A stretch of 64,000 nucleotides of DNA from Peptoniphilus lacydonensis. GTDB lineage: Bacteria; Bacillota; Clostridia; Tissierellales; Peptoniphilaceae. The position numbers and the translations under genes were made by a program. Where the stretch lies: positions 868,001-932,000 of the forward strand of contig NZ_FNWF01000003.1 in assembly GCF_900106515.1 (NCBI RefSeq). Direction: 5' to 3'. The notes under the pieces are model-generated. The model did not search any database and was not told where the DNA came from. It worked only from the letters and a program-made list of their open reading frames with translations. Positions 18,136 through 45,773 of this stretch are shown here, one piece after another (position 1 is the stretch's first letter; the number at the start of each line of letters is the position of its first letter).

Positions 18136-18920
18136 TATACCTCCATAGTTTTAGTAAGTTCTTTTTTCATCTTTTCTAAAACTTTTTTCTCCATTCTTGA
18201 AACTGTCATCTGAGAAATATTTAATTCCTCTGCAATGACAACTTGAGTCTTTTTGTTGAAATATCTATCAATTAGAATTGTTTTTTCAACTTCATCTAAA
18301 TTTTCCATAGCTCTTTTGAAAAAATCATTTGATTCTATTTTATCAAAATATTTTTCATCTGCTCCTACTAAATCAGATAGACTTACTTCATTTTCATCTC
18401 CTGCCTCATAAGTAACATCAAGTGATTGTGGAGTGTAAACTTTTGATGCTTCCATGGATTCCATTATCTCTTCAGGAGTTGAATTTAAAAATTCTGCAAT
18501 TTCATCTATGGTAGGAGTCTTTTGATATTTTTGAGAGAGAGTTACAGTTGCATTTGCAATTTTTTTAGATAATTCTTGAATTCTTCTTGGAACTCTAATT
18601 GTCCAACCATTATCCCTAAAATATTTTTTTATTTCTCCAATAATAGTTGGAGTGGCAAAGGAAGAAAATTCGAATCCTTTATCCGGATCATATCTCTCTA
18701 TAGCATAAATAAGTCCAATAGATGCAACTTGGTATATATCATCATAATCTATTCCTCTACCTGTATACTTTTTAGATAGTATTTCTGCAATATAAAGATG
18801 CTCTTCAATTAAAATATCTCTTATATCTTGATCTCCAGTTTTGTGATATTCTTTAAAAAGTTCTTTTCTTTCTTCTTTAGTGAGTCTTCTATCTAAGTTA
18901 TTATATTCTTTTAAGTTCAT
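18135..18920 (-). CDS. sigB: SigB/SigF/SigG-type alternative sigma factor
   Basis: A 261-residue RNA polymerase sigma factor of the group that includes SigB, SigF and SigG. Region 2 has DYDDIYQVASIGLIYAIERYDPDKGFEFSSFA with the core-binding and -10 recognition helix. Region 3 (PRRIQELSKKI... TPTIDEIAEFL) follows, and region 4 ends with the helix-turn-helix TQVVIAEELNISQMTVSRMEKKVLEKM. Genes for an RsbV-like antagonist and an RsbW-like anti-sigma factor lie immediately upstream, the normal partner-switch arrangement. No sporulation genes are seen, so a SigB-like stress role is more likely than SigF/SigG; the symbol is by that reasoning. Confidence 0.85.
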   Translation of the reverse strand: MNLKEYNNLDRRLTKEERKELFKEYHKTGDQDIRDILIEEHLYIAEILSKKYTGRGIDYDDIYQVASIGLIYAIERYDPDKGFEFSSFATPTIIGEIKKYFRDNGWTIRVPRRIQELSKKIANATVTLSQKYQKTPTIDEIAEFLNSTPEEIMESMEASKVYTPQSLDVTYEAGDENEVSLSDLVGADEKYFDKIESNDFFKRAMENLDEVEKTILIDRYFNKKTQVVIAEELNISQMTVSRMEKKVLEKMKKELTKTMEV

Positions 18921-42922: not shown

Positions 42923-43624
42923 TTGACAAAGAAAAAATCAAATATAATTCTTGCAATTTCAATACTAATACCATTTAGTCTTAGTGTTTCAGGAATGAAA
43001 AATTATATGGGGAAGAGTGCGTTTTTGTACTCATTTATGTGGGCAGTTGTAAATTATTTATTTATAATGACAGCAGTGGACTTTATAGCAAATTATAAAA
43101 AAATAAAAAAACTTGAAAATTTAAATATAAATAAAAAAACTTACAATTTGAATATATTTGTCTACCTTGGATTTTTAATTTTAGTAAATATTTATTTCTT
43201 GCAACAAATGTATGTAAAAGATGTAAAAATAGTAGATGCTTTATCCAATCCAATTCTCGTAATACTAGTATTTGTGGTATTTCTTATAAATCTCCAAAAT
43301 GGAAAATTTCCACAAAAAGAAGAAAAAGAAACAGATATATACGAAATACCGAGAAAATCATCTTTTAGAGATGGAAATGATAAATTGGGAACAGTGGTTG
43401 GATCATATGAAAATGGAATGATTTTAGGAAATTATCATTTTTCCTATGACAGTATGAAATCAATTTCTGAGTCAAAAGACAAAGAGTTAGTTATAAAAGG
43501 AAGAGAGAATTCAAAAAATTATAGAATTAATATTGGCTCAGAAAACTCTCTAAAAAAAGCAAAAGAAGTAATAAATGTTGCTCTAAAAAATGAAAAAATT
43601 GAGAAAAGCAAAGTTAATTTTTAA
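42923..43624 (+). CDS. Unknown membrane protein with cytoplasmic C-terminal domain
   Basis: A 233-residue protein I do not recognise. Four hydrophobic segments lie at about residues 8-25, 33-52, 75-94 and 105-125. The C-terminal 90 residues are soluble, with NDKLGTVVGSYENGMILGNYHFSYDSMKSI that may be a small beta domain. It starts at TTG after AAAAAGGAG and follows the GH73 gene by 16 bp in the same operon. Nothing links it to a known pathway. Confidence 0.55.
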   Translation: MTKKKSNIILAISILIPFSLSVSGMKNYMGKSAFLYSFMWAVVNYLFIMTAVDFIANYKKIKKLENLNINKKTYNLNIFVYLGFLILVNIYFLQQMYVKDVKIVDALSNPILVILVFVVFLINLQNGKFPQKEEKETDIYEIPRKSSFRDGNDKLGTVVGSYENGMILGNYHFSYDSMKSISESKDKELVIKGRENSKNYRINIGSENSLKKAKEVINVALKNEKIEKSKVNF

Positions 43625-43648: not shown

Positions 43649-43677
43649 TTGACAAAGTGAAATGGAAGCTTTATAAT
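43649..43677 (+). promoter_or_regulatory. Consensus promoter of the candidate structured RNA
   Basis: TTGACA (43649-43654), exactly 17 bp, TATAAT (43672-43677): a perfect sigma-A consensus, the strongest I saw in the window. Confidence 0.9.
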
Positions 43678-43683
43678 ATAATC

Positions 43684-43896
43684 AAGCTAGCTTGAGAAAA
43701 CAAAATTGGTTACTAAGAAAAGGTGATTCCAATGACAAGTTTTATTTTATCCCGAAAGGGAAGAGTAGCAAGATATCTCATTTAATAGTAGCTAAGTGCT
43801 AAAAGTTTGAATGCTTAATTCGGGAGATGTTTAAGCTATAGATATATAACAATTTAAAATAATTTATTGAGGGACTCTCGTTGAGTCCTTTTTTTT
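43684..43896 (+). ncRNA. Candidate structured small RNA, unidentified family
   Basis: The 415-bp gap between 43624 and 44040 has no plausible ORF but has a perfect promoter and an intrinsic terminator enclosing about 210 nt. The RNA can close with TAGCTTGAG (43688-43696) pairing TTTAAGCTA (43830-43838). A stacked arm AAAAC/GTTTT plus ATTGG/CCAAT (43697-43743) follows. TCCCGAA (43750-43756) can pair with TTCGGGA (43819-43825) or form a TCCC-GAAA-GGGA hairpin, so two states are possible. I could not match it to tmRNA, SRP RNA, RNase P RNA or a named riboswitch; 6S RNA is one possibility. A separate promoter follows, so it looks like a free-standing sRNA. Confidence 0.65.
43870..43896 (+). terminator. 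Terminator of the candidate RNA
   Basis: GGACTC pairs with GAGTCC across TCGTT, followed by eight T residues. Confidence 0.92.
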
Positions 43897-43985
43897 GTTT
43901 TAAACGCAATAAATCTAAATATAATTCTATATATTTTAAAATGAACTTCTATTAATATTTTACTAAATTGTAATTTTATTTTAAC

Positions 43986-44014
43986 TTGTAATCAAAAATC
44001 CTTTATAGTAGTAT
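43986..44014 (+). promoter_or_regulatory. Promoter of the lipoprotein gene at 44040
   Basis: TTGTAA (43986-43991), 17 bp, TAGTAT (44009-44014), then a short leader to GAGGAGG. Confidence 0.6.
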
Positions 44015-44039: not shown

Positions 44040-45773
44040 ATGAAAAAGAAAATTTTAGTTATTTTATTAGCACTAATGGCTGCAATAACGCTTGGAGCTT
44101 GTAGTGCAAATACTGTGTCATATTTAGATGCCGCAGGAAAAGTTTCCAATTGGGAGGGTTCAAAAGTTTCGGGAAAACTTGATTACGATTTTGAAATTAA
44201 AGATCCTAAATCAAATGAAATGGTAAATGTAAAGTTACCTATAAAACTCACAGGAGAACAATTGGGACAAGACAGGGCTCATGTAATTATGGACATGAAT
44301 CTTCAAGATGTAAAAAAAGTTTTTGAAAAAGATTTAAAGAATACAGAAGATAAAAAAGAGATTGAAGATATCCCAAACAATATGAAAATTGATGTGTTTG
44401 TAAAAGACAATGAAATTATTATGTCCAAAAATATTTTTGCTGTCAATAAAGAAGCCGTAAAAGATATTAAAGAAGATTATATTTCAATATCTAGTGAAGG
44501 TAATGGTCTTTCACCTAAATCAGCTAAATATTTTAGTTCTGAAGAATTTAAATCCGATTTATTAAAATTAATGGATGTAGCATTAGGAGATGCTAAACAA
44601 GGTATCGACTATGAAGTAAATGGAAATACTTATACATTAAATGCTACAAGTGATCAAATAATTGACGAATTTATTAAAGCATCTGATAATGTTATGAAAA
44701 ATTGGGACACTGTTTCTAAAGATGTGCTAGCAATTGTAGATAAAGCTGGGCTCCCAATTAATGATGAAGAAAAGAAAGATTTTAAGGAGCTTAATAAAGA
44801 ATACAAAAGAGAAGATTTAGTAAATTCTGCTTCTGAAATAAAAGAAATGCTAAAAGGTTCAAATATTTCAGAAAAGACAACTTTTGAAGAAAATAAATAT
44901 ATACAAGAAATTGGAATGAAAGTTAGCGTTTCAAATTTTGTAAAAGTTTCTGTTAAAGGAAATACTGTGACAACAAAAGATGAGAATGTTAAAATCAATT
45001 TCCCTACATCAGTTAAAAAATTAACTATGGACGAATATATGAAACTAATAATGCCAGGAATGAATTCAAGTCTTGTTACAGTGAGAGTAAATGGAGAAGA
45101 TATAACTTTTGAAGATCCAGAAGCTCTTCCAAAGATTATTAATGAAAGAACAATGTTAGCTGCTCGTGCTTTCTATGAAAAAATTGGCGCTAAAGTTGAA
45201 TGGAATGGAAAAGATAGAACAGTAACAGTTTCAAAAGATAATGATAAGATTGTTTTAAAGATTGATTCTAATAAGGCTCTTGTAAATGGAAAAGAAGTTA
45301 AGCTTGATTCACCAGCTACAATTATTAATGATAAAACTTATATTCCAGTAAGATTTGTATCTGAAGCTTTTGGTTATAAGGTTAAATACGATGCAAACGA
45401 AGGAATGCCAATAGTTGATATCTTTAATATTACTGAAAAAGAATTAGAAACAAAACTTCAAGAATTAGAAAAAGAAGAAAATTATAAAATGATAGCTTCT
45501 ATGAAATCATCTGGTCAAAAAGATGAAGAAATAGAAGAAACTTTAAAAGATCTTTATGAAGGTGAAGAATTAGATAAAATTCTTGCAGCTAAGGCTGATC
45601 TTGACAAAGATCCAGAACTTTTAAAAAAATATCAAGATGAAGTTAAAAAGGAAATGGAAGGAGCTTTAGGAGAAGATTCTGAAGAAAAGGAAACTAAAGA
45701 CGAAAAAATTGTAGAAAAAACAGAAAAGTCTGCAGAGAAAGTAGCAAAAATTTTATTTTCAGTAGTAAAATAA
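44040..45773 (+). CDS. Lipoprotein with copper-amine-oxidase-N-like stalk domain
   Basis: A 577-residue exported lipoprotein. The signal peptide ends in the lipobox LGAC (Cys21). Residues about 22-320 form a region of unknown fold with many charged helices, DYDFEIKDP early, and KVSVSNFVKVSVKGNTV later. Residues about 340-465 hold a copper-amine-oxidase N-terminal-like domain (VRVNGEDITFEDPEALPKIINERTMLAARAFYEKIGAKVEWN and TYIPVRFVSEAFGYKVKYD), a surface module common in Tissierellia and clostridia. A Glu/Lys-rich helical tail follows. It is not an oxidase; the role is unknown. Confidence 0.8.
   Translation: MKKKILVILLALMAAITLGACSANTVSYLDAAGKVSNWEGSKVSGKLDYDFEIKDPKSNEMVNVKLPIKLTGEQLGQDRAHVIMDMNLQDVKKVFEKDLKNTEDKKEIEDIPNNMKIDVFVKDNEIIMSKNIFAVNKEAVKDIKEDYISISSEGNGLSPKSAKYFSSEEFKSDLLKLMDVALGDAKQGIDYEVNGNTYTLNATSDQIIDEFIKASDNVMKNWDTVSKDVLAIVDKAGLPINDEEKKDFKELNKEYKREDLVNSASEIKEMLKGSNISEKTTFEENKYIQEIGMKVSVSNFVKVSVKGNTVTTKDENVKINFPTSVKKLTMDEYMKLIMPGMNSSLVTVRVNGEDITFEDPEALPKIINERTMLAARAFYEKIGAKVEWNGKDRTVTVSKDNDKIVLKIDSNKALVNGKEVKLDSPATIINDKTYIPVRFVSEAFGYKVKYDANEGMPIVDIFNITEKELETKLQELEKEENYKMIASMKSSGQKDEEIEETLKDLYEGEELDKILAAKADLDKDPELLKKYQDEVKKEMEGALGEDSEEKETKDEKIVEKTEKSAEKVAKILFSVVK

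Follow-up and report, generated by a model that had tools for sequence, protein, structure and literature searches.

A putative translated, structured small RNA of the Peptoniphilaceae with an over-long Shine-Dalgarno site and a covarying three-helix domain

A gap between two protein genes of Peptoniphilus lacydonensis holds a terminator-bounded RNA that we read as belonging to a new family of translated, structured, free-standing small RNAs (sRNAs), with a function that we infer. Comparison of the locus, found in a 64,000-nucleotide stretch of the genome (hereafter the window), with those of relatives supports a conserved transcription unit, an unusual initiation site, a hairpin at the leading edge of the initiating ribosome and a covarying three-helix domain. 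Taken together, we favor with somewhat less than even confidence the reading that this Peptoniphilaceae gene specifies a translated sRNA of the dual-function type, whose translation-coupled domain acts in trans. Species of Peptoniphilus are common human commensals, and an RNA family with covariation support in them is absent from Rfam 15. Its layout raises a testable question, namely whether some sRNAs use the ribosome as a partner, and ready comparisons exist in a natural series of one to four initiation units and in two members of the genus with no detectable copy.

The RNA lies between the gene for a membrane protein without a Pfam or NCBIfam match (42923-43624, + strand) and that for a lipoprotein with a Cu_amine_oxidN1 domain (44040-45773, +), the latter being outside the RNA gene. 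An earlier note, made from the single sequence, had placed a TTGACA-17-TATAAT promoter and a strong terminator around the transcribed part of this gap, and both were borne out. The sigma-A type promoter (43649-43677, +) matches the consensus at 12 of 12 positions. Promoter-like sites as such are not unusual in the region (7, against 5.3 +/- 2.6 in shuffles), and this one is credible because TTGACA-17-TATA[A/C]T is kept in all 12 copies from the genus, the genome's own included. The intrinsic terminator (43869-43896, +), a 9-bp stem at 43869-43891 with a T run, is the one terminator in the region, against 0.2 +/- 0.6 in shuffles. It lies 126-178 nt past the last AUG in 22/22 copies, the hairpin chosen by the script in G002 being one beyond the terminator of the alignment. 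The transcript of this single-copy gene is predicted to be about 210 nt long. Upstream, the membrane-protein gene adjoins the RNA in 21 of the 22 RNA-bearing genomes and, by comparison of coordinates, is on the same strand in the 12 of the window's genus (g1) and divergent in 9. The same membrane protein was found in 30/130 family genomes, and also occurs without the RNA, for example in G001, G008 and G032.

The stretch of about 210 nt was at first thought to lack an open reading frame, which proved wrong: a 17-codon mini-ORF (MTSFILSRKGRVARYLI, stop TAA) occupies 43732-43785 (+), behind AAGGTGATTCCA-ATG. The extended Shine-Dalgarno site AAGGTGATTCCA (43720-43731, +) is complementary, with one bulged base, to the 3' tail of 16S rRNA (GGCUGGAUCACCUCCUUUCU) and abuts the start codon; the genome's two 16S tails read GGCTGGATCACCTCCTTTCT. 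On paper, as many as 10 bases of this tail can pair with the consensus of the over-long site, GGTGATNCCR: GGTGAT-N-CCR is predicted to pair with UGGAUCACC, one base bulged, right up to the start codon. GGTG..CC is kept ahead of ATG or TTG in 22/22 aligned copies. Among 130 family genomes the motif AAGGTGATWCCRNTGA occurs at 23 places in 18 genomes, 22 of them inside this RNA, and the reversed control occurs once. The sole match outside the RNA (L094, 1501-1516, - strand) lies, by eye, within a protein gene of G003. The predicted duplex with the 16S tail averages -16.0 kcal/mol over 35 mini-ORF units, compared with -10.9 over the 49 ORFs in the window that have 120 codons or more, for each of which the best start was chosen. 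Three of these 49 match or exceed the mean pairing strength of the units, and GGTGAT.CC stands ahead of none. Because the pattern used to select the 35 units prescribes GTG and CC, that motif can be judged only from the 22 last units, whose positions came from models or BLAST. Frames of 7-23 codons follow these sites. In five genomes of the sister genus g9 the units are repeated in tandem (2-4 each, 52-57 nt apart), and two units fit the pattern in G020.

Downstream of the start codon, a hairpin and a three-helix domain follow in the same order in 22 copies, those of sister genera included: a hairpin about 19 nt past the AUG, then a helix P1 that encloses P2 and P3. The hairpin, PH (TCCC-GAAA-GGGA, 43750-43761, +), lies inside the ORF and begins to pair at +19, counted from the A of the AUG; among the 12 copies examined, its start is at +18 to +21 in 11, the script having taken a different hairpin in G150 and, at a similar place, a different helix in G100. 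P1 (43765-43839, +) joins GTAGC (43765-43769) to GCTAT (43835-43839) and ATATCTC (43773-43779) to GAGATGT (43824-43830); the first strand of the domain falls within the ORF or at its end. In 3 of the 12 genus sequences both sides of a P1 pair have changed, from U-A to C-G, and more such changes are seen across genera. P2 (TAGC-TAAGT-GCTA, 43789-43801, +) has both-side changes in 4/4 pairs with 100% of cells paired, and P3 (GAAT-GCTTA-ATTC, 43809-43821, +) has them in 3/4 pairs. Between these two hairpins, 3' of P2, lies the linker AAAGTTT (43802-43808, +), in place of which the remaining 11 genus copies have AAAGGTT or AAAGGTTT. The changes in P2 are the clearest among the helices, at the level of sequence, with variants that can be read without an alignment: TAGC/GCTA, TAGT/ACTA (G098), CAGC/GCTG (G026) and ACAG/CTGT (G020).

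The earlier note had suggested aligning the gap across relatives in search of paired substitutions, and the RNA was indeed conserved, with changes on both sides of its helices. In the alignment of 22 sequences (20 distinct), 96.5% of cells pair, 16/22 pairs have both-side changes and 0/500 shuffles are as good; partners slid by 1-3 columns pair in just 31-48% of cells. This alignment was fitted to the structure model, and three of its genus rows use another GTA segment in P1. In an unfitted MAFFT alignment of seven sequences the same fold pairs 94.2% of cells, and 2/500 shuffles reach its covariation score. All 3 of its both-side-changed pairs are in PH and none in P1, P2 or P3; it is the 15 sequences outside this alignment, therefore, that supply the evidence for these three helices. 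Among the 12 genus sequences alone, the helix set pairs 97.1% of cells and has 2 pairs with both-side changes, a number that 237/500 shuffles reach, while 3/500 reach the covariation score. When the best long helix was sought blindly, it fell at P1 in 21 of 24 sequences, although in single sequences this helix is mostly no better than in shuffles, with at most 10/200 shuffles as good in only 3 of the 24. The window sequence folded alone is marginally better than chance (z = -1.98, 9/200 shuffles as good), and the case for the fold therefore rests on comparison.

These helices only partly coincide with those first proposed from the single sequence. The TCCC-GAAA-GGGA hairpin, then considered one side of a switch, keeps 93.8% of cells in the genus and has diverged but paired equivalents in other genera. 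Its supposed competitor, a 7-bp TCCCGAA/TTCGGGA pairing, is not conserved (64.3% of cells paired in the genus, against 97.1% for the new helix set, with 3/7 pairs broken in 8, 10 and 11 of 12 genus sequences), and we rejected both the pairing and the two mutually exclusive states built on it. A 9-bp closing stem (43688-43696 with 43830-43838) keeps 72.4% of cells in the 12 genus sequences; only its first 5 pairs hold well, and its outer half was discarded. The stacked arm (43697-43701 with 43739-43743, and 43705-43709 with 43729-43733) keeps 93.3% and 96.7% of cells in those sequences, with no both-side change. Another competition is possible in the genus, in which 3' AGCTA (43834-43838) pairs either with 5' TAGCT (43688-43692) or with GTAGC inside the ORF; both pairings vary too little in the genus for covariation, and ribosomes could choose between them. 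In G020 (L055, 1519-1657), the hairpin CCAAT/ATTGG and the P1 strands TTGGATATA/TGTATCCAA overlap in bases and so are mutually exclusive, possibly a real two-state switch. The g9 copies (L050, L073, L075, L076, L103) have CTTGTGAATG in common near the 5' end of the RNA, where TTGTGA could pair with TTACAA 3' of P1 in 3/5 and in part in a fourth.

The RNA was followed from the genus outward by DNA searches and by successive models. Eleven of 13 same-genus genomes have its DNA, at 79-83% identity, a count from which 14 of the 26 matching genomes were left out as having matches of 21-45 nt only. The sequence-only model R1 gave matches in 22 of 130 genomes, with three g14 genomes at E 2e-10 to 2.5e-7, one g9 genome at 8e-4 and G020 (g8) at 0.06; matches in G001, G089, G120 and G124 and a second one in G151 were judged chance or coding, an assessment that left aside the match in G100:C46. 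The structure model R2, for which just seven sequences of g9 and g14 were used, recovered 11 of 14 genus genomes at full length (E 5e-6 to 6e-4) and additionally matched G098 and G026; when 69 kb were searched with it, the one genus copy still missing, in G006, scored E 7e-4 and G020 scored 0.018. In total, 22 copies were found, in 12/14 genomes of g1, 5/5 of g9, 4/4 of g14 and G020. No copy was found in the genus members G001 and G008 by DNA match, by models R2 and R3 or by eye at the locus, where the gene after that for the membrane protein encodes a related lipoprotein and the interval lacks the RNA. The core DNA pattern, linker included, occurs in 15/249 genomes of the order (reversed control 0), and a near-identical one in 14 records, all Peptoniphilus or Anaerosphaera, of a collection described as containing 84,980 species genomes; two pairs of species have the same core sequence. 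Model R3 matched 28 of 248 genomes, six of which, at E 0.2-0.9, were left out of the count, and, run on 391 genomes from the class, it yielded no further genus; as the model was built from the 22 sequences it found, it shows just that no other sampled genome scores well. Strong matches are thus confined to the Peptoniphilaceae in the genomes searched. Much diverged copies were seen by eye, with no match from the models, in two g5 genomes (G145 and G146; L130 and L133, about 2240-2480, +). These lie beside the same membrane-protein gene and carry GTGATACCAATG and CTAAGGTTT, a frame of 16-18 codons starting MYDLVDLVKK, and a P1 of AGTGGC/GCCACT or AATAGC/GCTATT.

The promoter differs in type between genera. 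All 9 copies of g9 and g14, and one of the two g5 copies, are preceded by a G[TA]TT-type -35 and a GGGTA[AT] -10 element 13 nt apart, which we take to resemble the sigma-B consensus. The pattern was written after the loci had been viewed, and as a control, 12 loci with 75,928 strand-bases contain 10 matches to it, all directly ahead of the RNA. Neither G020 nor any of the 12 copies in the window's genus has it. All 130 family genomes searched encode a SigB/F/G-type sigma factor, which passes the curated cut-off in 128 of them, and the window has one at 18156-18830 (-). The Peptoniphilaceae are not known to form spores.

The RNA could not be assigned to any described family. At gathering scores, Rfam 15 finds two tRNAs and nothing else in the window, and no family reaches its cut-off in the RNA locus or in the loci of 12 relatives. 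A covariance search for 6S, raiA and other clostridial RNAs, suggested at the outset, gave none above the gathering cut-off, and the initial view that this is not a tmRNA, SRP or RNase P RNA held against Rfam as well. With E up to 10, seven matches lie near the gap, all below cut-off. The best of these, to 6A (E 0.046), was rejected because it is the terminator on the opposite strand, and the sole match in the 12 relatives' loci, to an S15 leader (E 0.14), lies outside the RNA. ARAGORN found 0 tRNA or tmRNA genes in 13 loci. 6S RNA (RF00013) has no match here and a separate gene at G000:C1:1197045; raiA RNA (RF03072) has no match at the locus above the gathering cut-off, and a raiA search of 26 genomes gave no match, nor did its controls give a signal. 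A plasmid or phage origin was rejected for lack of a match in either collection. In the open literature, which leaves most subscription journals outside its coverage, we found no paper on an RNA of Peptoniphilus, and none on a dual-function sRNA with sigma B or on ribosome sequestration by a mini-ORF sRNA.

We propose that the over-long Shine-Dalgarno site would load ribosomes very efficiently onto the mini-ORF. From the size of the ribosome's footprint, a hairpin that starts about 19 nt past the AUG would be just outside an initiating ribosome. Ribosomes that read the mini-ORF to its stop would then hold PH and the 5' strand of P1 open, and folding of the 3' domain would therefore be coupled to translation, which would thus do more than produce a peptide. 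The P1[P2,P3] domain with its conserved linker AAAGGTTT is the presumed working part, acting in trans. In the sister genera the RNA would be made under stress by way of a sigma-B-type factor, and in the window's genus from a housekeeping promoter.

What lies 3' of the terminator bears on whether the RNA acts in trans or as a leader in cis, with mini-ORF translation controlling terminator read-through into the downstream gene, as an attenuator for the Cu_amine_oxidN1-type protein. We consider the latter unlikely, even though a mini-ORF and a terminator are its classical layout. By eye, on first residues, related lipoproteins follow the RNA in 6/12 genus and 5/5 g9 genomes, which makes the lipoprotein a frequent but not a constant neighbor. 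Downstream content otherwise varies among the 22 RNA-bearing genomes (with trmB-like, insertion-sequence-like and transporter-like genes, judged by eye, in G149, G002 and G004 respectively), so that no downstream gene is constant. This variability argues for a free-standing RNA, which it probably is, as first thought. A TTGAC-type promoter-like site stands ahead of the next gene in 7/22 genomes; the separate promoter once ascribed to the next gene in the window itself is weak, its best candidate being TTAACT-17-TATAGT at 43981-44009 with 9/12 matches. Terminator sequences vary and the domain does not, and no fixed antiterminator is evident by eye. In three of the four g14 genomes (G026, G150, G151), the next frame opens 2-18 nt past the terminator, its likely ATG being 18-29 nt past it, which leaves little room for a promoter and makes a role in cis possible in that genus.

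We think it quite improbable that this is a plain small-peptide gene, one whose product is the 17-residue peptide, with an RNA structure that does no more than adjust stability and translation. The strong start site speaks for such a gene, as does a frame of the same length in 12/12 genus copies that end in three different stop codons (TGA 10, TAA 1, TAG 1). The peptide is rich in K and R in most genus copies and begins MK in most of the 35 units. Against this, no conservation of the peptide is seen between genera (MKSEIFSLFIRKGAKYKS, MKIQNFGLLDKEAQVKKS, MYDLVDLVKKYSESGK), and the RNA domain 3' of the stop is conserved; chance ORFs in AT-rich DNA are likewise this short. Among 10 distinct genus sequences, pN/pS of the mini-ORF is 0.40 (0.30 without G006), from 10 synonymous and 18 other changes (7 and 10 without G006), where about 25% synonymous would be expected. 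The third-position excess that selection on the protein would leave is not significant in these sequences (P = 0.12 and 0.24).

A ribosome-binding RNA, whose over-long sites would hold 30S subunits or idle ribosomes under stress with the mini-ORFs incidental, is similarly hard to favor, and we judge it distinctly unlikely. Shine-Dalgarno spacing usually leaves several bases free ahead of the start codon, and here the possible pairing reaches the start codon, the R before it being able to pair with a 16S U. The 2-4 tandem sites of the five g9 genomes, the hairpin at the ribosome's leading edge and the sigma-B-type promoters of the sister genera would suit such a role as well. However, the window's genus has a single site and a sigma-A promoter, the start codon is kept in 22/22 last units, and part of the motif was built into the pattern that selected the 35 units. 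Moreover, UCACCUCCU, with pairing through UCACC, is reported as the extended anti-Shine-Dalgarno of Bacillus subtilis (PMC10783764); the unusual part of the site, as far as sequence tells, is the conserved CCR beyond that pairing. Least probable, and very doubtful in our view, is a ribosome-engaging stress RNA that captures 30S subunits or reports free ribosomes, with ribosome loading switching the P1[P2,P3] domain, a reading that draws on sites, tandem in one sister genus, matching the 16S tail beyond the Shine-Dalgarno core as far as the start codon, and on the hairpin at the leading edge of the last frame, and that, if true, would mean a bacterial RNA sensing or storing ribosomes instead of mRNAs or metabolites.

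The preferred reading, a translated sRNA with a domain acting in trans, can be set against known systems. 6S and raiA RNAs are clostridial RNAs of about 200 nt, and neither model matches this one. Ribosome-mediated attenuator leaders have a mini-ORF, helices that translation can open, and a terminator; the present RNA shares this layout and differs in that its downstream gene is not constant and no antiterminator is evident by eye. The sigma-B-dependent sRNAs of Staphylococcus aureus, which include RsaA, RsaD, RsaF and SbrA-C (PMC9266662), resemble its copies in sister genera in a sigma-B-type promoter with an intrinsic terminator. In contrast to them, it has no Rfam match, a sigma-A promoter in the window's genus, and a three-helix domain with mini-ORF arrays. 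Dual-function sRNAs, among which PMC8672173 names Pel, SR1, psm-mec, RNAIII, SgrS and VcdRP, have in common with it a promoter, a terminator and, at the level of its sequence, a short ORF with a ribosome-binding site. Unlike them, it has no Rfam relation, a 16S-complementary site stronger than those of nearly all window ORFs, a peptide not conserved across genera, mini-ORFs in tandem in a sister genus, and no base-pairing target known here. It is therefore not a demonstrated member of the dual-function sRNAs, but by analogy it would work like them.
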